A DNA stretch of 36,549 nucleotides from Prochloraceae cyanobacterium (lineage in GTDB: Bacteria > Cyanobacteriota > Cyanobacteriia > Cyanobacteriales > JASJDA01), in contig JASJDA010000025.1 of the NCBI GenBank assembly GCA_030065755.1, forward strand, positions 1 to 36,549, read 5' to 3'. Position 1 is the first letter of the stretch; each line of letters begins with the position of its first letter. This document shows positions 3,120-36,389 of this stretch, piece by piece. The notes beneath the pieces are model-generated. The model ran no database searches. It was not told where the DNA came from and saw only the letters and a list, made by a program, of their open reading frames with translations. A program made the translations under genes and the position numbers.

Positions 3120-4274
3120 ATGACAATTATCGATCGACTTACTGAATGGCTGGAAACACGATTTTCTTCTCCCTCTTATAGTGGATTATTATTAGCAGGG
3201 ATTGCTCTATGTCTGTTTGGTGCTGCAACTAACACTATGGCGGGATGGCTGTATGTCATCAGCGGGACGATCTTTGCTTTGTTAGTCTTGGGAGCCATAC
3301 TTCCAGGACGATCGCTGCGTCAAATAAAAGTCAATCGACTTCCCATCTCTCCTGTGAGTGCGGGGGAACAATTGACAATTGAATTAGAAATAGAAAATAC
3401 GACATCTAAAGCTAAAACTCTTTTACAAGCAAAAGATATATTACCCTACGTGCTGTCTGAGCCAGAGAGTATGGCAATAGAAGCGATCGCGCCCAATCGA
3501 GTATATCGCTGGGCTTATAATTGCGAAGTTAAAAAACGCGGTGTTTATCGATGGCATGAGGTACAACTAAAAAGTGGGGCTCCATTAGGACTATTTTGGT
3601 GTCGTCGCGATCGTCAGGTTGCAGCTAAAGCAATTGTATATCCTACTGTTTTGCCTTTAACTCAATGTCCTTTAATAGATAGCATCGGACGAGACGACAG
3701 TACTGTTTTCGAGCGAGACAACCGCTATCAACTTGCAAGCGTTGGTTTGACCAGAGGGATACGACCTTACCGTCTTGGAGACCCCATGCGTCTAATTCAC
3801 TGGCGCACCAGCGCGCGCTTCGGAGAATTTAAAGTAAGGGAATTAGAAATAATTACTGGAGGTCAAGAAGTTGTTATTTGTTTAGATAACGCTTTTAAGT
3901 GGGAAGAGGAAAGTTTTGAATTAGCAGTAATTGCAGCAGCATCCTTATATTTTTATGCTCGTAGATGTCAATTAAATGTCAAACTGTGGATAGGGACTGC
4001 AGGTTTAATTGAGGGCGATCGGGTAATTTTAGAATCTTTAGCTGCTATTAATCCCGAAGAAGATACGACTAAAGTCAATATCCCCTCTTTACCCTTAATT
4101 TGGTTAACTCAAAATTCTTCTAGTTTTTCATCCCTTCCTGCTGGTAGCCGTTGGCTTTTCTTCACCCCAATTGCTACTAATGAAATTCCCACATCAGTTA
4201 ATACTAACTTACCTGGATTAGCGATCGATTCAAAAGAAAAGTTAGAGAAACAGTTACAGAGACATCTAAATTAG
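3120..4274 (+). CDS. DUF58 domain-containing membrane protein
   Basis: The 384-residue protein has two hydrophobic segments at its N-terminus (about residues 20-38 and 42-60), then a large soluble part. The DUF58 signature is clear around residues 218-240: IRPYRLGDPMRLIHWRTSAR, followed by KVREL. DUF58 proteins usually sit beside MoxR ATPases and transglutaminase-like genes and are thought to assist assembly or maturation of other proteins; no MoxR gene is visible here. The gene starts 6 nt after recJ, which suggests one transcript, although no functional link between the two is known to me. The specific role is not known. Confidence 0.85.
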   Translation: MTIIDRLTEWLETRFSSPSYSGLLLAGIALCLFGAATNTMAGWLYVISGTIFALLVLGAILPGRSLRQIKVNRLPISPVSAGEQLTIELEIENTTSKAKTLLQAKDILPYVLSEPESMAIEAIAPNRVYRWAYNCEVKKRGVYRWHEVQLKSGAPLGLFWCRRDRQVAAKAIVYPTVLPLTQCPLIDSIGRDDSTVFERDNRYQLASVGLTRGIRPYRLGDPMRLIHWRTSARFGEFKVRELEIITGGQEVVICLDNAFKWEEESFELAVIAAASLYFYARRCQLNVKLWIGTAGLIEGDRVILESLAAINPEEDTTKVNIPSLPLIWLTQNSSSFSSLPAGSRWLFFTPIATNEIPTSVNTNLPGLAIDSKEKLEKQLQRHLN

Positions 4275-5211: not shown

Positions 5212-5823
5212 ATGAGTAACAATTGTTGCCAAAATAAAGGTTGTGAACTATCTAAACTGAAAAAACAGCAAGCCAAGGTACTTTGGGCAGTACTGTGGAT
5301 TAATTTGGCGATGTTCTTTATCGAGTTTGGGTCAGGAATTCGAGCGGATTCTGTGTCTTTAACTGGAGACTCACTCGATATGCTGGGCGACGCATTGGTT
5401 TATGCAACCAGTTTGTATGTCATTAATAGGGGTAGTAAAGCTCAGGCAGGCTCAGCATTTCTCAAAGGAATCATCATGTTTTTGTTTGCGATCGCAGTCT
5501 TCGCCAGGGCAAACTATCAATGGTTTACAGGTACAACACCACAAGTAACCATCATGAGTACAGTTGGAGTTTTAGCGTTACTTGCCAACTTGTTCTGTCT
5601 GCTCCTGTTGACTAGACACAGGAAGGATAATCTGAATATGTCTTCTGTTTGGTTGTGTTCGCGAAATGATATTATTGCAAATACGTCTGTCCTTGTAGCA
5701 TCAGGCTTAGTATTTCTGACCCATTCCGTAGTGCCAGATCTAGCCGTAGGTTTGTTGTTGACCTTTGTTTTTGCCAAGTCTGCGGGGAAAGTGCTGTCCC
5801 AGTCTTGGAAAGAAATGCATTGA
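5212..5823 (+). CDS. Short CDF-type cation transporter (transmembrane domain only)
   Basis: The 203-residue protein is the six-helix membrane part of the cation diffusion facilitator family, which export Zn, Fe, Co or Cd by proton antiport. TM2 contains SLDMLGDALVY, giving the DxxxD metal site. The expected TM5 site reads CSRND, i.e. CxxxD instead of the usual HxxxD. The N-terminus has three Cys residues (5, 6, 11) that could bind metal. The cytoplasmic ferredoxin-like C-terminal domain that dimerises classical CDF proteins is absent: the protein ends a few residues after TM6 with KVLSQSWKEMH. Because the stop is clean and the termination point sensible, I read it as a genuine short subfamily rather than a truncation. 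Substrate cannot be decided from sequence. Confidence 0.8.
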   Translation: MSNNCCQNKGCELSKLKKQQAKVLWAVLWINLAMFFIEFGSGIRADSVSLTGDSLDMLGDALVYATSLYVINRGSKAQAGSAFLKGIIMFLFAIAVFARANYQWFTGTTPQVTIMSTVGVLALLANLFCLLLLTRHRKDNLNMSSVWLCSRNDIIANTSVLVASGLVFLTHSVVPDLAVGLLLTFVFAKSAGKVLSQSWKEMH

Positions 5824-5835
5824 CAACATTAAAAA

Positions 5836-5869
5836 CAGTTATCAGTTAAAAAGAAATAACCGATAACTG
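5836..5869. repeat. CAGTTATC/GATAACTG inverted repeat between convergent genes
   Basis: An 8-bp perfect inverted repeat (5836-5843 and 5862-5869) lies in the 56-nt gap between the transporter and pheT stops. It uses the same CAGTTAT word found as a five-unit array at 23792-23826. It may serve as a weak bidirectional transcript end; there is no clean U-tract. Confidence 0.45.
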
Positions 5870-5879
5870 ACAACTAAAA

Positions 5880-8315
5880 CTAACTTCTCAGAGTGACGCT
5901 AAATTTTTCTACTAGCGCATCTCGAATTTTTTGATGGACGGGTTCGATTTCTTTATCAGTAAGGGTGCGATCGCTGGCTCGATAATATAAACTAAAAGCC
6001 AAACTTCTCTGTCCTTCAGGTACGTTTTCCCCAAGATAGCGATCGAACAATTCTGTCCCTTCTAATAAAGCACCACCAGCTTTTTTTATTGCAGCTTCTA
6101 TTTCACCCACGGAAACTTTATCCGCTGCAAAGAAAGCCAGATCTCTTTCTACTGCGGGATAAGTAGAATACACTTGGAATCGAGGTTTCATGAATTGCTT
6201 TGCTGTCAAAGCTTCTAATAAAATATCCAAATTCAACTCAAAAGCATATACCTCATCGGGTAAACTTTTTTCTTGTCGCAGTTGGGGATGGAGTTGTCCG
6301 AAAATACCCAAACGCTTTTCTCCCAACCATAAAGAAGCAGTCCGTCCAGGATGAAGTCTTTTATCTTCTTTATCGGCTCGATATTTTACTACTAAATCTA
6401 ATCTAGCAAAAACACTTTCTAAGATTCCTTTAGCTTCATACCAGGTCATGGGGGACTCTTTACCACCCCTCGTCCAGCGACCAAAAGGTAAGCGATCGCC
6501 TCCCATTATTCCCCCTATTACGTCTGCTTCGGCTAACCCGTCTTCAGTTTTCCAAAAAATGCGACCAATTTCAAAGCCATTGAGAGCGCCATTTCCCTGC
6601 GACTGATTGTACTCAAATGCGTCAATTAGTGCAGAGATAAGGTTAGTGCGTAAGGCTGAATAGTCTTCTAATAGAGGGTTAGATATTACTATTTCTTCTG
6701 CTGTTGGTTTGACTACGGAGTAGTGATATATTTCTGTCAGTCCAACTGCGCGGAAAGTTTCTCTGAGTTTGCGCTTTATTTTCTCCTGTAAAGACAGATA
6801 ACCAAATTCAGTTTGATCGGGTAGTTTTTCACAGAAGTTATCATATCCGTAGAGACGAGCTACTTCTTCAATTAAATCGATTTCTCGCTCTAAATCTCGA
6901 TATCTGTAGGGAGGGACGGTAACGATCCAAGTATCTGTTTTATCTTCTATTTTTTCTAGCTTGCATCCCAAAGCTGTCAAGATACGTTCTACATCTGCTG
7001 TTTCAATTTCACCCGTCCTATTTTCTAGTTTGACTGACCCTAAAATTTGGCGAACTCTTTCTAAACGCAGTTCAATGGAACGAGAGAGATTGTCGGGTCG
7101 CGCGTCAGCAATTGCTTGATTAGTGGGAGTTCCTCCACCTAATTTAGTTATTAGATCGATCGCTCTGTTTAGTGCAGTAATTAATTCTGCTTGGTTGACC
7201 CCTCGTTCGTAACGGGAAGAAGCCTCAGTACGCAAACCTATAGATCGAGAAGAACGTCTAATTGCTACTGAGTCAAATAAAGCTGATTCGAGGACGATAT
7301 TTTCTGTTTCTTGATGTACTTCTGTTTCTTCTCCTCCCATCACACCTGCTAGAGCTACTGGGCGATCGCCAGCAGTTATCAGTAGATTTTTTTCTTCTAA
7401 GGTTCGCTCTTCTCCGTCCAGGGTTGTTAGTTTTTCTCCTTGTTTAGCAAAACGAACGCCAATTGTCAAGTTTTTTTCTCCACTTACAGCTTGCAAGCGT
7501 TCGCGATCGAAAGCGTGGAGAGGTTGACCCCATTCTAAAAGGATATAGTTAGTTGCATCGACTATATTGTTGATTGGTCTCACACCTGCTGCAGAGAGTC
7601 GCGATTGCAACCAATCTGGTGAAGGAGCAATTTTTACCCCTTCTATGACTGTACCGATATAAGCAGGACAGGCTTGGGAGTCTGGGATATCTAAACTCAA
7701 ACTCGTGTTTTCTGTTGGTAAAGAAAACTCTGGCGGCAGGGGTAATCGCAGAGTTCCCCCTGTGAGTGCGGTTACTTCTCGCGCCACTCCCACCATACTC
7801 AGAGCATCAGCACGATTTGCCGTTGCTGTCAAGTCTAAAATTACATCGTCAAGACCCAACAGAGGTCGAATGTCGGTTCCTAATTCTAGATCCTCTTGAG
7901 GAAAGATGTGAATGCCTTCAGATTGCTTTTCTAAACCCAATTCAGCCAAGGAACAAATCATTCCTTCCGATCGCACCCCACGCAGTTTAGTCGATCGCAA
8001 TTTTAGGTCAATAGTTGGTAAATAGGTTCCCAGAGTCGCCACTGGTACGTAAATATCTGCTTTGACATTAGCGGCTCCACAGACTATGTTAAGAGGAGCA
8101 TCTTTTCCTACATCTACTTGGGTGACTCGCAATTTATCTGCATTGGGATGGGGTTGACAATCAATTACCTTACCAACAACAACGCCATTCGCTTTCTCGC
8201 CCAAGTCTTCTATATCTTCGACTTCAAATCCTGCTACGGTCAGTGTTTTTGCTAATTCTTCAGGAGATAGAGTTACATCTACTAATTCTCGCAGCCAATT
8301 CAAAGAGATCCGCAT
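5880..8315 (-). CDS. pheT: Phenylalanyl-tRNA synthetase beta subunit
   Basis: PheT pairs with PheS in an alpha2beta2 enzyme that charges tRNA-Phe in the cytoplasm. The 811-residue length and domain order are standard: N-terminal [13 protein letters not shown], a tRNA-binding (EMAP/Myf-like) domain at about residues 40-150 ([20 protein letters not shown]), the B3/B4 editing region with the HAFDRERLQ segment, the B5 domain, the catalytic-like core ([20 protein letters not shown]), and a C-terminal FDX-ACB anticodon-binding domain ([11 protein letters not shown]). No pheS is in the window, so the two subunits are encoded apart, as is common in cyanobacteria. It is a single-gene unit here, flanked by a repeat hairpin downstream and an AT-rich leader upstream. 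Confidence 0.97.
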
Positions 8316-8674
8316 CTATTTCTCTTTTACCTACTCAGCTAGAATATTCTAACTTTTTCCTCACCAATTTCTTCACTTAATCCTATTTTAATTAGGATGA
8401 ATTTGAATTTTGAACTTATTTAATTATTGGTTTTTTATGTAATTTTATCGTTTAAATAGTAGTTGTTTCTAAAAGATCTGTCGTTTTTAGTACGAATCTA
8501 GCAAAAACTCGGCATAATTTCTGATGTGAAATACAAGACTTGTCTGTTAAATTAATGGAAGCTTGAATATACCTAAAAACAATTTTGATGAAATAATCAC
8601 TCAAAAGAGTTAATTGGAGTAAATCAAAAAGCATCCCCCTTAAAAGCGCGGATAATACGAGATTGATAAAACCA
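8316..8674. other. AT-rich divergent intergenic region, pheT / kinase
   Basis: About 360 bases without a convincing gene. A small hairpin, ATCCTA-7 nt-TAGGAT, lies in the presumed pheT leader near 8382-8400. A GATAAT at 8651-8656 could be a -10 for the kinase, giving a leader of about 15 nt. The only ORF here (8452-8634, minus) has no family resemblance and no Shine-Dalgarno. Confidence 0.4.
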
Positions 8675-10303
8675 ATGAGCTACTGCCTAAATCCCGCCTG
8701 TTCCCAGCCAAAAAACCCTAACAAAAGCTTAACTTGCCAAGCCTGTGACTCTCAGCTAGTATTACAAGGTCGCTATCTAGCAATTAGAACCTTAGGTAAA
8801 GGAGGATTCGGAGCAACATTTTTAGCAAGAGACCTATCCTTACCAGGGTATCCCCCTTGCGTAATCAAGCAACTCAGACCTTCAGTAGATGACCCGAGTA
8901 TTTTCGAGATGGCTAAACAGCTATTTGAGCGAGAAGCGCAAACACTCGGAAAAGTTGGAGATCATCCTCAAGTGCCGAGACTGCTGGACTACTTTGAATA
9001 CGATCGACAATTCTATTTAATACAAGAATACATCAAAGGGCCAAACTTGCAAAAGGAAGTAAGAAAGAATGGAACTTATAGCGAAGCAGCAATAAAACAA
9101 TTTTTAAGTGAAATCTTGCCTATTATTAAATATATTCATTCTTCCGAAGTAATACATCGCGATATTAAACCAGCAAATATAATTCGTCGTCAGCAAGACA
9201 AACAATTAGTATTAATTGATTTTGGAGCAGTTAAAAATCAAGTTAATACAACAACCTTATCCCCTGGGGGTCAAACGGCTTTAACGGCTTTCGCTGTTGG
9301 TACTGCTGGTTTTGCTCCTCCAGAGCAAATGGCAATGCGACCTGTTTATGCTAGCGATATCTATGCTGTTGGCGCAACTTGTATTTACTTGCTGACAGGT
9401 AAACCCCCCAAAGACTTAGCGATCGACGTGTCCACTGGGGAAATAATGTTGCAAAAATATGCCTATATCAGTAAAAACTTGGCTAGAGTTTTAACCAAAA
9501 TGATCGATGCTTCTGTCTTCCATCGGTATAAATCCGCCGATGAAGTCTTAAGGAGCTTAGATATCGAATCTTACTTTGATACTTTATCTCAAGGGTTGAT
9601 ATCACAACCCAATTCAACAAGTAATATAAATAGTGATTCAGTACCTACTAAAATTTGTAGATCTCCTGAAGTAATGTCGTCTTATAGATCGACAACAACA
9701 CAATTAGCAACAGCAATTCGCAAGCGCCGCAACAGACGGGCTAGTTTGCAATCTACCCATCACGCTTCTGTGGGACACGTAAGTAATTATTCTAGAAATT
9801 ACCAGTATGCTACTGCGATCGATTCCCAGTCAATTAACGAACCCACAAAAGTAGCCAAAAAAGTTCCCACTAAAAAATTAGATGCTGATACGGTAATTAC
9901 CCAATATAGCGGTGGCAGGCGAGATTTTGCTCAGCAAAATTTAAACCTACTCAATCTCGCAAAAGCCAATTTATCTGATAGTAATTTTCACGAATCTAAA
10001 TTGATGAAAGTCAATTTACGAGGAGCTAATTTATCTGCTGCTGATTTTGGTGGTGCTAATTTAAAGAAAGCACATTTGTGCAATGCTAATTTAAGTCGAA
10101 CATATTTAAACCGTACAAATCTAACAGATGCCGATCTCAGAGGTGCGGATCTCAGTTGTGCCCATCTTACTAACGCTAATTTAACAGGAGCCAATCTCTG
10201 CGGTGCCAATCTTACTGATGCTAAAGTAAGTGATGAACAACTGGCAAGAGCTAAGACTAATTGGCGAACAATTCTACCTAGTGGCAAGCGAGTATTTTGG
10301 TAA
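8675..10303 (+). CDS. 4-Cys Ser/Thr protein kinase with C-terminal pentapeptide repeats (SpkB-like)
   Basis: The 542-residue product phosphorylates Ser/Thr on unknown cytoplasmic targets. Residues 1-25 form a Cys motif (C4, C9, C21, C24; MSYCLNPACSQP). A Hanks-type kinase domain spans about 33-300, with GKGGFG (41-46), the ATP lysine K65 in CVIKQL, HRDIKPAN with catalytic D163, and the DFG at 182-184; all are intact. A Ser/Asn-rich basic linker (about 305-405) leads to pentapeptide repeats at about 420-517 (repeated ANL.. and ADL.. units). There is no membrane segment. The architecture matches Synechocystis SpkB as I recall it, where the Cys motif matters for activity. An upstream in-frame TTG at 8663 exists, but MSYCLNP at 8675 is the usual start of the family. 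aat follows after 12 nt. Confidence 0.93.
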   Translation: MSYCLNPACSQPKNPNKSLTCQACDSQLVLQGRYLAIRTLGKGGFGATFLARDLSLPGYPPCVIKQLRPSVDDPSIFEMAKQLFEREAQTLGKVGDHPQVPRLLDYFEYDRQFYLIQEYIKGPNLQKEVRKNGTYSEAAIKQFLSEILPIIKYIHSSEVIHRDIKPANIIRRQQDKQLVLIDFGAVKNQVNTTTLSPGGQTALTAFAVGTAGFAPPEQMAMRPVYASDIYAVGATCIYLLTGKPPKDLAIDVSTGEIMLQKYAYISKNLARVLTKMIDASVFHRYKSADEVLRSLDIESYFDTLSQGLISQPNSTSNINSDSVPTKICRSPEVMSSYRSTTTQLATAIRKRRNRRASLQSTHHASVGHVSNYSRNYQYATAIDSQSINEPTKVAKKVPTKKLDADTVITQYSGGRRDFAQQNLNLLNLAKANLSDSNFHESKLMKVNLRGANLSAADFGGANLKKAHLCNANLSRTYLNRTNLTDADLRGADLSCAHLTNANLTGANLCGANLTDAKVSDEQLARAKTNWRTILPSGKRVFW

Positions 10304-22111: not shown

Positions 22112-22550
22112 GAGGGTTCTCCTCTCTAGACAATGAATTTGATTTATTTTCTAGGGTAATAGGCTTTGTTATGTTTTGAAAAGCTCTAAGAGCTTTTCAG
22201 CTTTCTTTTAATAATTTAGCGCGTTTTGCCTATTTGGTGCATAGGTTTTTAGCACCGACTTTCTCTGCTGATAATAAATCTTTGTATGTTTTACAATCCT
22301 GACTTTTAACAATATTTAATATATTCTCAAAATTAGACTTTGCATAGCTTAAAAGATGATTTTTAGTTTTTAAGTAAAGATTTAAATATATTTTGTAATA
22401 AAAAGTAATAATTGGGAAATTTAGCTTAATTAACTTTAGTGGTAACGATTGACAGATCCAGATTCCGTTATATTGCTTTATGGAAAGTATTCAGAAAAAA
22501 TAATATCGATTAACTTAGCATTGACTAGAAATTTACTAGGAGAGGACAGC
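22112..22550. promoter_or_regulatory. psaA leader/promoter region, divergent from the lipoprotein gene
   Basis: About 440 bases. On the psaA side, TGAAAAGCTC-TAA-GAGCTTTTCA (22177-22199) is a perfect 10-bp stem lying about 65 nt before the psaA start. A second weaker hairpin, GGTGC-11 nt-GCACC, is near 22238. TTTACAAT at about 22300 matches an HLR1 half-site, but the second half is degenerate. On the plus side, AGGAGAGGA at 22537-22545 is the ribosome site that fixes the lipoprotein start. Confidence 0.5.
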
Positions 22551-23789
22551 GTGTTGGGTAAAAATCGCCAATGGATACGGATACGAGCAATTTGCTTATG
22601 TTGGGTCTTAATAATTTCTGGTTTGGGTTTGAGCAGTTGTAGCAATCGCCTGCAAACATCTCAGTTGTTCGACCAAAAGGAGCGAGTAAATAAAACGGCA
22701 CCTGCTTCAAAGCTTTTTGAAGTAGACCCTCCTGAAGTAATTCAACAATTACGCCGAGGTTTAGAGAGGTATAGTCCACAGGTAGCTATTCTCTCGCCAA
22801 AAAACGATGAAGTTCTCAAAGATACAAATGTTAACGTGCGGGTTGACGTAACAAATTTGCCGGTATTTAAAGACGAAAAGCTGAAACTCGGCCCTCATAT
22901 TAACCTAATCTTAGACGATCGACTAATAAGTGAAATCTACAATATATACAAGCCAATAAGTTTAGAAAACTTATCAAAAGGAACCCATACTTTGCGAATT
23001 TTCGCTTCAACTCCTTGGGGCGAAAGTTTTAAAAACGAGGGGGCTTACGCTCAAATTAACTTCAGCATACAAAAGAAAACAGACGATAAAGTTCCAGATC
23101 TTTCAAAACCCTTATTAACCTACAATAGTCCTCAGGGTGAATACGGAGCAGAGCCGATCGCTTTAGACTTTTATCTATCAAATAATATCTCTGGGGACAA
23201 GGCTAAAATTGCTGACTATCAGATTCGAGTTAACCTTGACAATGACAGCTTTATTATCGATAGTTGGCAGCCATTTTATCTTAAAGGTTTTTCACAAGGG
23301 AAACACTCAGTTGAATTAGAATTGGTCGACTCTGAAGGTAAAAGCGTAAACAATGTATTTAACAAGGTGGTCAAAGAATTTACTTATCAACCAAACGGTC
23401 AAGATTCCTTATCAAAAATACTAAGAGGAGAGATTTCCGCAGAAGTAGCAGGTACGATCGTAGATCCTAATTATCAGCCGCCGCAACCGCCACCAGCAGT
23501 ACCCTCAACCATCGACACTACTCCTGCGAAGTCAACTTCCACTGATAAAGAAAAAGAAACTTCTGAGCCAACGGAAAAAACTACACCAGAAACAACAAAA
23601 CCTAAATCGACAACAAAACTTGAAGAAACTGAATCTTCGCCAAAAATTGAAGCTGAAAAAACAGATCTATCTAAACCAGCGAGCGAAGAAACTTTAGAAA
23701 CTTCTGAAGAAACTAAAGAAACTTCCCAAGAAACTGATTCTGCTGAATTAGAGAAATCTAAAGAAGCTGAAAAAACAGAAAAAAATTAA
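22551..23789 (+). CDS. Secreted lipoprotein with beta-rich domains and acidic Thr/Glu/Lys tail
   Basis: I chose the GTG start at 22551 because AGGAGAGG lies 5 nt upstream and it gives a textbook signal: basic n-region (KNRQWIRIR), hydrophobic core, and lipobox GLSSC with Cys30. An in-frame TTG at 22449 would add 34 unlikely residues. The mature protein has two related beta-rich regions of about 100 residues (SPKNDEVLKDTNVNVRVDVT..., NSPQGEYGAEPIALDFYLSN...), each with a GxHxLxL-like strand (SKGTHTLRIFAS; SQGKHSVELELV), suggesting two Ig-like modules. Residues 308-412 are low-complexity, Pro-rich then Thr/Glu/Lys/Ser-rich, probably an extended linker. Function unknown. It is divergent from psaA; a repeat cluster follows it. 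Confidence 0.8.
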   Translation: MLGKNRQWIRIRAICLCWVLIISGLGLSSCSNRLQTSQLFDQKERVNKTAPASKLFEVDPPEVIQQLRRGLERYSPQVAILSPKNDEVLKDTNVNVRVDVTNLPVFKDEKLKLGPHINLILDDRLISEIYNIYKPISLENLSKGTHTLRIFASTPWGESFKNEGAYAQINFSIQKKTDDKVPDLSKPLLTYNSPQGEYGAEPIALDFYLSNNISGDKAKIADYQIRVNLDNDSFIIDSWQPFYLKGFSQGKHSVELELVDSEGKSVNNVFNKVVKEFTYQPNGQDSLSKILRGEISAEVAGTIVDPNYQPPQPPPAVPSTIDTTPAKSTSTDKEKETSEPTEKTTPETTKPKSTTKLEETESSPKIEAEKTDLSKPASEETLETSEETKETSQETDSAELEKSKEAEKTEKN

Positions 23790-25438: not shown

Positions 25439-25945
25439 ATGACTTACACAGCAAATTCTGCCCTTAAATACTTCTCTAACCCTAAGTTAGCCGATGCTGT
25501 ACCAGCCACAATCTCGCTATTTAAAAACCTCCGCGTTGACGACCAACTAGGTCTACTGTGGTTCGCTTACACCAGAATAGGCAGCTCCATAACTCCTGCT
25601 GCTCCTGGTGCTGCTAGGCTGCAATTTGCCCAAGGTTTGCTAGAGCAAATTAAGCAAATGTCTCACACAGAACAGTTGCAAGTAATGCGTGACTTGGCAA
25701 AAAAAGCTTACACTCCTATTAGCCGTGCTTACGGAGTTTTGACAAATAATACCAAACTAGCTTTTTGGTATAAGCTAGCTGAATTAATGGAAGAAGGCGT
25801 AGTTATTCCCGTACCTTCTTCTTATGAAATGAGCCGCGAAGCTAAAAATCTACTCGCTGCTATTGAAAATCTAGAATTTTCTCAACAAATCACAGTGTTA
25901 CGTAAGATTGTCGCTGACATGGGAGTAGATCCTTTCGCTAACTAA
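25439..25945 (+). CDS. Helical carotenoid protein (OCP N-terminal-domain homologue)
   Basis: HCPs are stand-alone relatives of the effector half of orange carotenoid protein. They bind a carotenoid and quench singlet oxygen or phycobilisome excitation. The 168-residue sequence aligns without gaps to the OCP N-terminal domain: LRVDDQLGLLWFAYTRIG and AAPGAARLQFAQGLLEQIKQ, and ITVLR at 151-155. Carotenoid-contact Tyr44, Trp41 and Trp110 are at the same numbers as in OCP, and Arg155, which in OCP forms the inter-domain salt bridge, is present. The chain stops where OCP's linker would begin. A CTDH gene follows 91 nt later, the arrangement described for the Anabaena HCP4-CTDH pair as I recall it; this suggests the HCP4-type clade. 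Confidence 0.95.
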   Translation: MTYTANSALKYFSNPKLADAVPATISLFKNLRVDDQLGLLWFAYTRIGSSITPAAPGAARLQFAQGLLEQIKQMSHTEQLQVMRDLAKKAYTPISRAYGVLTNNTKLAFWYKLAELMEEGVVIPVPSSYEMSREAKNLLAAIENLEFSQQITVLRKIVADMGVDPFAN

Positions 25946-25979
25946 TTGCTGAAGTATCCGATTTACATTTCATTCATTG

Positions 25980-26007
25980 GAGCAGGATATTTCCTGCTCT
26001 TTTGTTT
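25980..26007 (+). terminator. Intrinsic terminator between the HCP and CTDH genes
   Basis: GAGCAGGA (25980-25987), TATT loop, TCCTGCTC (25992-25999), then TTTTGTTT. A perfect 8-bp GC-containing stem plus U-tract, 35 nt after the HCP stop and 30 nt before the CTDH start. It would limit read-through from HCP to CTDH. Confidence 0.85.
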
Positions 26008-26036
26008 CACGATCGAACGAACTAAAAGATAAAAAT

Positions 26037-26477
26037 ATGAACCTAGCTCAATCTAATTCTCAAACTGCTTCTAACTTGAATATTGAAGGGATTTCAGAGC
26101 CAGTAGTCAAACGTTATTTTGAAACCATAAATGCTGGGAATTTTGAAGCGACAGCCAACTTGTTTGCTCCAGAAGGAGCATTACATCCCCCTTTTGAATC
26201 TCCTGTTGTGGGATACGACGCGATCGCTACTTATCTACAAACAGAAGCTGAAGGTATGCTGCTATTTCCCGCTCGAGGAATAGCAGAAACCTTAGACGAC
26301 GACAATATCAGAATTGAAATCGAAGGTAAAGTTCGAGCTCCTTTATTTAGTGTCAATGTTGCTTGGCAATTTATTGTCAATCCCTGCGGAGAAATTTTAC
26401 ACGTTCAAGTTAAACTCTTAGCATCTGTCCAAGAGCTATTGAAAATAAAACCCGATCGCTTGCAACAAGATCTTTAA
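26037..26477 (+). CDS. CTDH: OCP C-terminal-domain homologue (NTF2-like carotenoid carrier)
   Basis: CTDHs are NTF2-fold proteins that carry carotenoid and deliver it to HCPs, and can pair with an HCP as a two-chain OCP. From ATG at 26037 the 146-residue product aligns with the OCP C-terminal domain: VKRYFETINAGNFEATANLF, LHPPFESPVVG, RAPLFSVNVAWQFIVNP, KLLASVQELL. Tyr27 corresponds to OCP Tyr201 and Trp110 to the carotenoid-bonding Trp near 288-290; Glu70 falls at the place of Glu244, partner of Arg155. A single Cys (117) could form a dimer disulfide. The in-frame upstream start at 25977 would lie inside the terminator hairpin, so 26037 is preferred. The stop overlaps the convergent gene by 4 nt. 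Confidence 0.93.
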   Translation: MNLAQSNSQTASNLNIEGISEPVVKRYFETINAGNFEATANLFAPEGALHPPFESPVVGYDAIATYLQTEAEGMLLFPARGIAETLDDDNIRIEIEGKVRAPLFSVNVAWQFIVNPCGEILHVQVKLLASVQELLKIKPDRLQQDL

Positions 26478-32275: not shown

Positions 32276-32317
32276 CCTCCTACGGCTGAAAGCTCGTAGG
32301 TGTCCCAACTGCGGAGG
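32276..32317 (+). promoter_or_regulatory. Structured leader of the permease gene with hidden Shine-Dalgarno
   Basis: The ribosome site GGAGG (32313-32317) lies 6 nt before the ATG. CCTCC (32276-32280) upstream is its exact complement. Between them CCTACG (32279-32284) and CGTAGG (32295-32300) can form a competing hairpin that uses part of the same CCTCC. The two folds are mutually exclusive, the usual layout of a translational switch. No known riboswitch class was recognised. Confidence 0.5.
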
Positions 32318-32323
32318 GTTATT

Positions 32324-33934
32324 ATGAGCACTGTCAAGGAACTTGTCATACCGCGCTGGTTTGTTCGTAAAGACATTGATGGATTTTTCGCGCTAGCCTT
32401 AGATAATTTAATACAGATTTTAGTAATACTGAGTTTGTGCTTTGGAGTCCTTCAGTTTCCTTCAAGCATTGTTTACGGACGTATTTTGCCTGGGGTAGCA
32501 ATTAGTTTAATAGTTGGTAATTTTTATTATAGTTGGCTCGCTTACGAACAAAGTAAAAAGGAACAAAGAGACGATCTAACTGCTCTTCCCTACGGGATTA
32601 ATACTGTTAGTTTATTTGCTTATGTGTTTTTAGTTATGTTGCCAGTTCGTTTAGATGTTTTAGCAAGTGGAGCTACATCGGAAATGGCAGCAGAAATAGC
32701 TTGGCAAGCTGGTTTAGTTGCTTGTCTTGGCTCTGGACTCATAGAATTGGGAGGAGCAACTATTGCTAATAAATTGCGTCAATTTACTCCTCGCGCAGCA
32801 CTTTTATCGACTTTAGCAGGAATTGCTTTAACGTTTATTTCTATGGGCTTTTTCCTGCGAACTTATGCCCATCCCCTAGTAGCTTTTGTTCCTTTTGGGG
32901 TAATTTTATTATCTTATTACGGGCAAGTAAAGTTTACTATTCCAGGATTTAGCATCAATATTCCTGGGGGATTAGTAGCGGTTATATTAGGTACTATTTT
33001 AGCTTGGATGACAGGGCTTGCCAGTTGGGATGGGAGTCAGTTTGCTGCGGTAAGCGAACCTATTGGCATTCAAATTCCCCGTCTAGCGATCGCAGAAATT
33101 TGGCAAGAAAGAACCATATTATTAAGCTATTTCAGTATTATTTTACCGATGGGGTTATTTAACCTAATAGGAAGTTTGCAGAATTTAGAAAGTGCAGAAG
33201 CAGCAGGCGATCGCTATCCTGCATCGCCCTCTCTTGCAGTTAATGGCATTGGCACTATCTTTGCAGCCTGTTTTGGTTCTTGTTTTCCTACAACAATCTA
33301 CATCGGACATCCAGGTTGGAAAGCTATGGGCGCTAGAATCGGATATTCTGCCTTAAATGGTATCGTGATGGGATTGTTGTGTTTGAGTGGAACGGTTGGG
33401 TTAGTATCTTTCTTTATTCCGATCGATACCGGTATGGCTATTGTTTTGTGGATCGGTATTGTTATTGTTACTCAGAGTTTTACAGCAACGCCCCAAAATC
33501 ACGCTCCAGCAGTAGTTATTGGTTTGTTTCCAGGGATTGCTGGTTGGGGGGCATTAATAGCTAAAAATGCCTTGCGATCGGCAGGTTTAGGCACGCCATC
33601 CAATCCCTTTTCACCAGATTTAATTCCTATTTTCGAGCAAAGCGATACATATATTAGTGGTGCTTTTGCTCTCGAACAAGGCTTAGTTTTTAGCGCCACA
33701 ATCTTGGCAGCAATTACAGTTTATATTATTGAAAAAGAGTTTGGTAAAGCAGCTTTATGGTCAATAATAGCCGCAATACTATCTTGGTTTGGTTTGCTTC
33801 ACAGCTATCAATGGACAATAGCAGACACTGTAATCCATTTAGGTTGGGGTGCTGGCGCACCTTGGGCTGTTAGCTACGTTTTATTAGCTATTCTCTTTTT
33901 ATACGCTCAGTGGCGGCAAACACAACACCTCTAA
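32324..33934 (+). CDS. NCS2-like permease (xanthine/uracil permease superfamily)
   Basis: The 536-residue protein is an integral membrane carrier with about 12-14 hydrophobic segments. KDIDGFFALALDNLIQILVI at the N-terminus, DDLTALPYGINTVSLFAYVF near 80-100 and NLIGSLQNLESAEAAGDRYP near 290-310 are the NCS2-type conserved places (TM1, the TM3 region and the TM8 region). NCS2 members carry nucleobases, urate or ascorbate with H+ or Na+; the substrate here is not deducible. I use the ATG at 32324, with GGAGG 6 nt upstream; an in-frame GTG at 32300 would add 8 residues encoded by the leader hairpin. No purine or pyrimidine gene is adjacent. Confidence 0.8.
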   Translation: MSTVKELVIPRWFVRKDIDGFFALALDNLIQILVILSLCFGVLQFPSSIVYGRILPGVAISLIVGNFYYSWLAYEQSKKEQRDDLTALPYGINTVSLFAYVFLVMLPVRLDVLASGATSEMAAEIAWQAGLVACLGSGLIELGGATIANKLRQFTPRAALLSTLAGIALTFISMGFFLRTYAHPLVAFVPFGVILLSYYGQVKFTIPGFSINIPGGLVAVILGTILAWMTGLASWDGSQFAAVSEPIGIQIPRLAIAEIWQERTILLSYFSIILPMGLFNLIGSLQNLESAEAAGDRYPASPSLAVNGIGTIFAACFGSCFPTTIYIGHPGWKAMGARIGYSALNGIVMGLLCLSGTVGLVSFFIPIDTGMAIVLWIGIVIVTQSFTATPQNHAPAVVIGLFPGIAGWGALIAKNALRSAGLGTPSNPFSPDLIPIFEQSDTYISGAFALEQGLVFSATILAAITVYIIEKEFGKAALWSIIAAILSWFGLLHSYQWTIADTVIHLGWGAGAPWAVSYVLLAILFLYAQWRQTQHL

Positions 33935-34346: not shown

Positions 34347-36389
34347 ATGATTTGTTGTCTCAACCCCGACTGCAATCAACCGATTAATCCCGAAGGTCGT
34401 CGGTTTTGTCAGTACTGTCGGACTCGCTTAAAGCCAAAGTTAAGGAATCGATATAAAGTCATTAAACCAATAGGAAGGGGTGGCTTTGGAAAAACTTACT
34501 TAGCAGAAGACACCGATAAGCTCAACGAATTATGTGTAGTTAAGCAACTAGCCTTCGGTGGCTTCTCGACTCCCTTAGTTACAAAAGCAAAAGAATTATT
34601 TGAACAAGAAGCCCAACAATTACAAAGGTTGGGAGAACATCGTCAAATACCTGCTCTTTTTGCTTACTTTGAAGAAGATAAATATTTATTTCTGGTACAG
34701 CAGTTTATAAAAGGGCAAAATTTAGTAGAAAAATTAAAGAAACAAGATGCATTTAGCGACACTCAGATTAGAGAACTTTTACTCGATCTCTTACCTATTT
34801 TAAAATTCATCCACTCCAAGGGCATTATTCATAGAGACATAAAACCTGGAAATATAATGTGCCGTTCTGATGACGGTAAATATGTCTTGATTGATTTTGG
34901 TATATCAAAAATTTTAAGTTCATCTCTAAACAATCAGACAGGAACCAGTCTGGGTTCTCAGGGATATGCAGCCCCAGAACAGTTATTAGAAGGGAAAGCT
35001 GTTCCAGCCAGCGATCTCTACAGCTTAGGAGCTTGTTGCGTGCATCTACTCAGCGGAATTAATCCCTTGAAATTTTGGTTAGATCGAGGCTATGGATGGA
35101 CTGAGGAATGGCAGAAGTCAATAAAAAGCCCACTGAGTCCCTCAATCGAGTCTGTCTTATCTAAATTGTTAGAAAATAACATCGATAAACGCTACCAAAA
35201 AGCTGAGCAAGTCCTAAATGACTTACAGCCGAAAAGTAAGACTTCGACCTCTACCTCGTCAAATCCACCAAAGCCAAATAGTAGGGAAACTACTTCAAAA
35301 CCTTCTCAAGATTCAACTAAAGAAACTTTAGTTGGTTCAATGGGGAAAATGCACTGGATCCGACTTACTGCTTTGATGGTAACAGTAGTTAGTACCATCG
35401 CTTTAGGGGAACACATATTAACATTGATATCTGAGTTGACAGGTTTAGCAGATCCACCCGTATCTTCCGATCGAGCAGCACCTTTTGACCAAACAAAAAA
35501 AACTTTCGCAGCAGTAGAACAAATTCCTTCAGGACTCTTCAGTCATGGAGGTAGTGCCACTTGGAGCCCGATCCGAAAAAAAGTCAATCCTGCCATTGAA
35601 AAAACCTGGCCGAAGTTTAAGCTGCGCTACGTAGAGCCAATTAGTAGCAATCCTAACTCCAGCAGCGGAATAGAAATGTTATTGGATGACGAATTAGCAT
35701 TTTCTCATTCCTCTCGTCCCCTTCACGACGAAGAATATGAAAAAGCTAAAATACGCGGCTATAAACTCAAAGAAATAGCAATAGCTATCGATAGCGTTGC
35801 CATCGCCACTCATCCCAGCCTCTCGATTCCTGGTTTAACATTATCTCAACTTAAAGACATTTACACGGGAAAAATATCTAACTGGAAAGAAGTTGGGGGA
35901 CCAGACTTATTAATAGTTGTCTATTCTCACGATCCAAATAATGAGGGTACTGGCGAATTCTTTTTCAAACACGTTTTGGGTGGTGAGAATTTAGGAACAA
36001 ATGTCGTTATCCCTGAAACCCCCCATATCGGGATTAAAAACGTAGCTTCTAACCCTGGAGCTATTTATTATTCCAGCGCGATCGAAATAGTACCTAAATG
36101 TAATGTTAAAGCCCTGCCAATTGGTAAAACAAAAAATAGTTTAGTTTCTCCTTATCAAGAACCTTTGGTTCCTTTTTCTCAATGTAAATCTCAACCTAAT
36201 AAGCTAAATAAGTCTGCTTTCCAAAGTGGAAAATATCCCCTGACGCGCAGATTATTTGTGATTGTCAAACAAGATAACGGAGAAGACGAACTGGCTGGTA
36301 TAGCTTACACTGAGCTTTTGTTAACAACTGAAGGTCAAAAATTAATTAGCCAGGCTGGTTTTGTTCCTATTCATCCGATCGATGATTGA
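34347..36389 (+). CDS. Ser/Thr protein kinase fused to a PstS-like solute-binding domain
   Basis: The 680-residue protein has four parts. Residues 1-25: a Cys motif (C4, C9, C21, C24; MICCLNPDCNQP). About 36-295: a Hanks-type kinase with GRGGFG (43-48), ATP lysine K66, HRDIKPGN with catalytic D164, and DFG (183-185), all intact. About 296-335: a Ser/Thr/Pro-rich linker. About 337-355: one membrane helix, with the basic KMHWIRL before it placing the kinase in the cytoplasm. About 385-680: a periplasmic-binding-protein fold of the PstS type: GGSATWSPI, LDDELAFSHSSRPL, IAIAIDSVAIATHP, LTLSQLKDIYTGKISNWKEV, NNEGTGEFFFKHVL, NPGAIYYSSAIEIV. It could sense an extracytoplasmic ligand and signal through the kinase. 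No pst transport genes are nearby. It shares its N-terminal design with the kinase at 8675. Confidence 0.93.
   Translation: MICCLNPDCNQPINPEGRRFCQYCRTRLKPKLRNRYKVIKPIGRGGFGKTYLAEDTDKLNELCVVKQLAFGGFSTPLVTKAKELFEQEAQQLQRLGEHRQIPALFAYFEEDKYLFLVQQFIKGQNLVEKLKKQDAFSDTQIRELLLDLLPILKFIHSKGIIHRDIKPGNIMCRSDDGKYVLIDFGISKILSSSLNNQTGTSLGSQGYAAPEQLLEGKAVPASDLYSLGACCVHLLSGINPLKFWLDRGYGWTEEWQKSIKSPLSPSIESVLSKLLENNIDKRYQKAEQVLNDLQPKSKTSTSTSSNPPKPNSRETTSKPSQDSTKETLVGSMGKMHWIRLTALMVTVVSTIALGEHILTLISELTGLADPPVSSDRAAPFDQTKKTFAAVEQIPSGLFSHGGSATWSPIRKKVNPAIEKTWPKFKLRYVEPISSNPNSSSGIEMLLDDELAFSHSSRPLHDEEYEKAKIRGYKLKEIAIAIDSVAIATHPSLSIPGLTLSQLKDIYTGKISNWKEVGGPDLLIVVYSHDPNNEGTGEFFFKHVLGGENLGTNVVIPETPHIGIKNVASNPGAIYYSSAIEIVPKCNVKALPIGKTKNSLVSPYQEPLVPFSQCKSQPNKLNKSAFQSGKYPLTRRLFVIVKQDNGEDELAGIAYTELLLTTEGQKLISQAGFVPIHPIDD

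Follow-up and report, generated by a model that had tools for sequence, protein, structure and literature searches.

A 4-Cys Ser/Thr Kinase Joined through a Single Predicted Membrane Helix to a PstS-fold Domain, a Likely Receptor Kinase of a Cyanobacterium

RESULTS

We analyzed a 36,549-nucleotide stretch of DNA (hereafter the window) and focused attention on a reading frame near its end, which runs from an ATG to a stop codon without internal stops and encodes 680 residues (Table 1). The N-terminal prefix matched NF045510 of NCBIfam with 27.9 bits (cut-off 24), which places the protein among the 4-Cys-prefix kinases, and the following Hanks-type domain matched Pkinase of Pfam with an E-value of 1.7e-39. 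The kinase motifs are all intact (GRGGFG 43–48, K66, HRD 162–164, N169, DFG 183–185, and APE 209–211); judged from these motifs, the domain is complete and has all of the catalytic residues of an active kinase. The C-terminal part belongs to the PBP_like_2 family (PF12849, residues 400–644, E 3.3e-25, 89.8 bits against a cut-off of 27), and its score with TIGR02136 (123.7 bits) lies below the cut-off of that NCBI subfamily (206.6). Together with the AlphaFold model described below, the NF045510, PF00069, and PF12849 matches bear out the original prediction that a 4-Cys Hanks kinase, one membrane helix, and a whole PstS-like domain lie in one chain.

Table 1. Features of the kinase-PBP gene and their positions in the window
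Feature	Position	Strand	Basis
Whole gene: 4-Cys kinase, one TM helix, PstS-fold domain (680 aa)	34347..36389	+	ORF, Pfam, NCBIfam, AlphaFold
4-Cys prefix (zinc-ribbon-like), residues 3–28	34353..34430	+	NF045510
Hanks-type Ser/Thr kinase domain, residues 36–291	34452..35219	+	PF00069, motifs
Kinase catalytic residues K66, D164, D183 (intact)	34542–34544; 34836–34838; 34893–34895	+	Motif inspection
Disordered juxtamembrane linker, residues 303–334	35253..35348	+	pLDDT <50, full-length model
Single predicted membrane helix, residues 335–364	35349..35438	+	AlphaFold; Kyte-Doolittle
PstS-fold (PBP_like_2) domain, residues 385–676, predicted extracytoplasmic	35499..36374	+	PF12849, TIGR02136, model, VIA (PstS structures, Z 25–28)
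Pocket loop 1, residues 403–405, S-A-T (family S-T-T)	35553..35561	+	Alignment
Pocket Ser438, aligned with E. coli-type Ser38	35658..35660	+	Alignment
Pocket Ser456-Arg457, position of E. coli Asp56 and the next residue	35712..35717	+	Alignment
C-lobe ligand loop, residues 528–535, H-D-P-N-N-E-G-T (family mostly R....GGT)	35928..35951	+	Alignment
Cys585, putative disulphide with Cys613	36099..36101	+	Alignment of relatives
Cys613, partner of Cys585	36183..36185	+	Alignment of relatives

Full-length homologues in separate genomes and on separate contigs excluded an assembly chimera or frameshift artefact. In the same 8.46-Mb cyanobacterial genome, two paralogues located on other contigs share the full architecture (59 and 55% full-length identity), and one such gene is present in G001, a genome of this genus that was assembled separately (locus L030 = L110 = L132). 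An apparent decayed fourth kinase-PBP gene lies on contig C393 of the window's genome (positions 3191–3759, minus strand; locus L025). It retains kinase residues 1–67, with a stop inside, followed by PBP residues 477–570 and 637–675, and has suffered a large internal deletion.

The full-length AlphaFold model consists of two confident domains, disordered linkers (the one in Table 1 and residues 365–376), and one helix between them. The Kyte-Doolittle profile peaks over this helix at 343–361 with a modest value of 1.84. The single membrane helix on which the original prediction depended is thus recovered by both methods, and both disfavor a wholly cytoplasmic protein. Modeled alone, the PBP domain reached a pLDDT of 93.9. 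In a second look with VIA, its 38 best distinct entries were phosphate-binding-type proteins with Z-scores of 28.0–18.4, among them 4omb (Z 28.0, 270 residues, rmsd 2.8), 1twy (Z 27.5), the phosphate-bound 4gd5 (Z 27.2, 242 residues, rmsd 2.4), and Synechocystis Sll0540 (9l8j, Z 26.1). These results indicated that the domain has the PstS fold.

Two features are consistent with a PBP domain outside the cytoplasm, as we infer it to be. Cys585 and Cys613 are both kept in 85 of 102 relatives and probably form a disulphide, as would fit an oxidising outer compartment. Lys and Arg residues flanking the helix, summed over 14 paralogues, number 48 on the N side and 31 on the C side; the bias is 3 to 1 in the window copy and missing in some paralogues.

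We next consider the ligand pocket, whose positions (404, 438, 456, 528, 533, 534, and 535) were mapped by alignment to solved PstS proteins and the genome's own PstS rather than read from a ligand-bound structure of the window protein. The original prediction proposed checking whether the phosphate-ligating positions are kept, and the outcome was divided: Ser438, Ser456-Arg457, and Gly534-Thr535 are kept, whereas Thr404, Arg528, and Gly/Ser533 are replaced by Ala, His, and Glu. Among the 102 relatives, Thr404 is found in 82, Arg528 in 70, Gly533 in 60, and Thr535, which the window protein shares, in 75; loop 1 (GGS), Ser438, and the SSR motif are kept in most. His528 aligns with Arg125 of the Clostridium perfringens protein, a phosphate ligand (PMC12421899). 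Loss of this arginine alone would not exclude phosphate because a SAR11 PstS binds phosphate tightly with a proline there (PMC12421899). Glu533, placed beside the anion site in the alignment, makes phosphate less likely for the window copy. Because three pocket positions are changed, phosphate as the ligand of the window protein is doubtful on this alignment.

The pocket also varies among the other fused kinases. The paralogue C180 and the G001 protein retain the whole family pocket, Arg528 and GGT included; C419 has lost Gly-Thr from the C-lobe loop; and two kinase fusions of another genus have this loop deleted. With the window pocket partly lost and this loop missing from two fused relatives, binding of a ligand may not be a general property of fused kinases.

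No pst, sph, or PstCAB gene was found among the nearer neighbours scanned, in agreement with the original prediction that no pst or sphS/sphR gene lies nearby, and none recurs near the relatives. Apart from this gene, the contig has no PF12849 match. No SphR Pho box was matched upstream of it, and one weak match elsewhere in the window was at chance level; a promoter and terminator scan likewise gave promoter-like sites at chance and nothing usable. The genome presumably has a Pst system, because it contains separate PstS genes (C333 and C452).

Elsewhere in the window are several genes of other kinds, those given here being on the plus strand. A second 4-Cys Ser/Thr kinase (8663–10303) ends in pentapeptide repeats and has no PBP domain. 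A free orange-carotenoid-protein N-terminal domain (25439–25945; Carot_N, E 1.6e-67) is directly followed by an NTF2/SnoaL-like protein (25977–26477), so that the two orange carotenoid protein halves are present as adjacent genes. Two reading frames have no Pfam match at 1e-3: one of 446 residues (22449–23789) and a very hydrophobic, permease-like one of 544 residues (32300–33934).

Among 79 loci other than kinase fusions, 34 have a Ser/Thr kinase gene no more than two genes away from the PBP gene; many loci are related by descent, so that independent cases weigh more. The chance of a kinase in a 6-kb neighbourhood is ∼4%, a rough figure taken from ∼60 kinase-like matches in the 8.46 Mb of this genome. 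Two arrangements were found. In one, seen in Nostocales and some others, the gene just upstream encodes a 4-Cys kinase with membrane helices at its C-terminus, and a Peripla_BP_6-family protein bearing the same N-terminal anchor is often present as a second binding protein. In the other, a different kinase group stands beside a second PBP clade on either strand. The window's own genome has a stand-alone PBP gene (L022:4428–5627) that is followed, 18 bases on, by a kinase gene (5645–7852). At L034:4261–5691 and similar Nostocales loci, the Peripla_BP_6 (amino-acid-type) protein, with the anchor MSQKNET..., is encoded between the kinase and the PstS-like gene.

The domain order itself was surveyed across the order, as the original prediction had proposed for cyanobacterial genomes. 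With a fusion profile and checked reading frames, full-length kinase-TM-PBP fusions were found in 9 of 391 genomes, belonging to five genera; the window protein, with kinase, one helix, and PBP subfamily in one reading frame, is a member of this group. A genus-only origin, which the phylum sample had led us to suspect, was overturned by this search. On the kinase-domain tree, the fused state requires six changes, at least four of them forced by well-supported branches, and a single clade of all fused kinases was rejected (p-AU 1.4e-5). On the PBP tree, the four fusions of the window's genus form one clade (SH-aLRT 98). The window fusion arose separately because its kinase clusters with 4-Cys kinases from the same genome whose C-terminal modules are WD40 or FGE-sulfatase. 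Direct descent from the Nostocales kinase-PBP pair is for the same reason unsupported; only L134 shows such a fusion, of exactly the 4-Cys kinase type that Nostocales encode just upstream as a separate gene.

Independent fusions and gene adjacency are classical evidence of two parts acting together. Because cyanobacteria paired both parts several separate times, the PstS-like sensor probably controls the kinase.

The original prediction overlooked that the PBP domain is a shared module, which this genome also places on TPR repeats and CHAT proteases. Roughly a dozen further proteins encoded there contain the PBP subfamily (46–61% identity to the window domain), always at the C-terminus and preceded by one hydrophobic helix. 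At the N-terminus they have CHAT (three; L019, L014, and L021), TPR repeats (three, one broken), short tails (three), or regions for which Pfam gives no confident match or none at all (three). Relatives may have a caspase (L064, L098, L109, and L112) or AAA (L092) domain at this place, and one caspase-PBP_like_2 protein has been listed previously (PMC8283722). Joining of CHAT and caspase-like proteases through one helix to a PstS-fold domain suggests that these proteases are gated from outside.

The subfamily is present in 60 of 386 cyanobacterial genomes (even phylum sample, E 1e-50), a lower bound, as few candidates were scored per genome. Most cyanobacteria having the domain encode it as a stand-alone protein of ∼350 residues with a short N-terminal membrane helix. 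Three proteins (L091:5698–6849, L096:5686–6831, and L024:3124–4341) carry a zinc-ribbon (4-Cys-like) prefix directly on the helix and PBP domain, without a kinase.

DISCUSSION

We consider it likely that the gene encodes a single-pass receptor Ser/Thr kinase with a ligand-binding PBP domain as its outer sensor. The zinc-ribbon-like prefix and the predicted active Hanks kinase would lie in the cytoplasm, the single helix would cross the membrane, and the PstS-fold clamp would face the periplasm or the thylakoid lumen. Opening or closing of the clamp by a small and probably anionic ligand, or by a partner that carries one, would alter the pairing or position of helices and linkers. This change would raise or lower autophosphorylation of the kinase and phosphorylation of putative cytoplasmic targets. 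The original prediction of a PstS-type domain as the kinase's outer sensor is supported as to its arrangement (kinase inside, single helix, and sensor outside), in line with the topology, the repeated fusion, and the adjacency; that the protein senses phosphate is doubtful, given the changes at 404, 528, and 533.

A narrower form of sensing, in which inorganic phosphate is the ligand, as for PstS, and the kinase tunes phosphate metabolism, appears unlikely to us for the window protein, even though the closest solved structures are phosphate-binding proteins, including phosphate-bound 4gd5. Retention of Ser438, Ser456, Gly534, and Thr535, the whole pocket in two of the four kinase fusions of the genus (C180 and G001), and the SAR11 precedent are offset by the three replacements, of which Glu533 adds negative charge beside the anion site, by a serine at the E. 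coli Asp56 position, and by the lost loop in other fused relatives; the neighbours found include no pst or sph gene, and the window has no Pho box above chance. If the clamp instead bound nothing, the domain would be a membrane or envelope anchor or a protein-protein contact that positions the kinase. The C-lobe loop, mutated in the window copy and C419 and deleted in two fusions of one genus, is what such a role would lead one to expect, but the fold is intact (pLDDT 93.9), and the first loop, Ser438, and the SSR motif persist in most relatives, so that we regard a ligand-less domain as improbable.

PBP_like_2 domains normally serve ABC transporters, and the domain might be a tethered substrate-binding subunit of a transporter that the kinase regulates; C333 and C452, with the presumed Pst system, would fit such a role. 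We give this explanation very little weight. In 80 loci around stand-alone relatives, genes for permeases or ATPases are not widely recurrent (one ATPase family is found in 5), the recurrent neighbours being kinases, LysR, and a second binding protein. No known binding protein of a transporter resembles a domain tethered C-terminally to a CHAT, caspase, TPR, or kinase protein. It is just as hard to see the gene as part of a conflict or programmed-death network in which the PBP domain senses damage or an invader. The CHAT and caspase fusions in this genome or its relatives speak for such a network, but PADLOC matches such as PD-T4-6 reflect any Ser/Thr kinase rather than defence, the CHAT-PBP protein has no PADLOC match, and the Nostocales neighbours are mostly housekeeping genes.

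The receptor kinase that we favor has counterparts among known systems. The GlnH-GlnX-PknG relay of mycobacteria and corynebacteria is supported by experiment (PMC6069109, PMC9769921), and there, as we infer for the window protein, a Ser/Thr kinase is under the control of solute binding on the extracytoplasmic side of the membrane. The relay, however, consists of three proteins, namely a separate amino-acid-binding lipoprotein, a four-helix membrane relay, and a soluble kinase, none of which the window protein has; it unites its kinase, one helix, and a PstS-like clamp in a single chain. Closer in form are a Ser/Thr kinase of Streptomyces coelicolor fused to a Glu/Gln solute-binding domain and one of Nostoc 7120 fused to an ANF-receptor-like domain (PMC1262709). 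Like the window protein, they join a kinase and a binding-protein fold in one chain, with a putative ligand in every case, but their binding domains are of other families, none of the phosphate-binding-protein class.

The PASTA kinases (PknB, PrkC, and StkP) are likewise single-pass Hanks kinases with a C-terminal outer sensor. Their sensor consists of PASTA repeats, which bind cell-wall fragments. The window protein had no Pfam match to PASTA repeats, and only its kinase part matched NF033483, with 149.5 bits (cut-off 450), consistent with the earlier view that its sensor is a different one. With PstS and other PBP_like_2 phosphate-binding proteins (4gd5, 4q8r, and Sll0540 9l8j), the window domain has the whole fold and most pocket loops in common; unlike them, it has no signal peptide or transporter partner, is anchored in the membrane from its N side, and has an altered pocket. 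Among other cyanobacterial 4-Cys kinases, C133 and C198 of the same genome are 60–66% identical in the kinase domain and the second kinase of the window is 40% identical, but their C-termini are WD40, FGE-sulfatase, or pentapeptide and not PBP. A 2007 survey of 21 cyanobacterial genomes listed 14 additional domain types in Ser/Thr kinases, none PstS-type (PMC2176072). Binding proteins that steer Ser/Thr kinases are already known; what is new is a PstS-type domain as the probable sensor in a one-chain kinase.

The less expected result is the frequent reuse of a detached PstS-fold head on kinases and proteases. We regard it as an even question whether cyanobacteria possess a membrane-anchored PstS-fold sensor module, detached from transport and repeatedly joined to varied cytoplasmic outputs (kinases at least four times, CHAT and caspase proteases, and TPR scaffolds), that would serve as a general outside-in receptor head with a pocket diversifying from copy to copy. 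From the adjacency and fusion pattern, many stand-alone proteins annotated as "PstS" in cyanobacteria are predicted to be kinase-linked sensors and not transporter parts, and the same PstS-fold head may also gate caspase and CHAT proteases. Because the head is compact, soluble, and structurally familiar, the signal of the kinase is directly testable by binding assays on residues 385–680.

In caspase-PBP proteins, an uncharacterised region (35–43% identity) lies just ahead of the membrane helix (L109, residues 413–551; L112, residues 236–352; L098, L120, and L124). The same region, without a caspase, forms the N-terminal 180 residues of the protein at L016:4672–6306.
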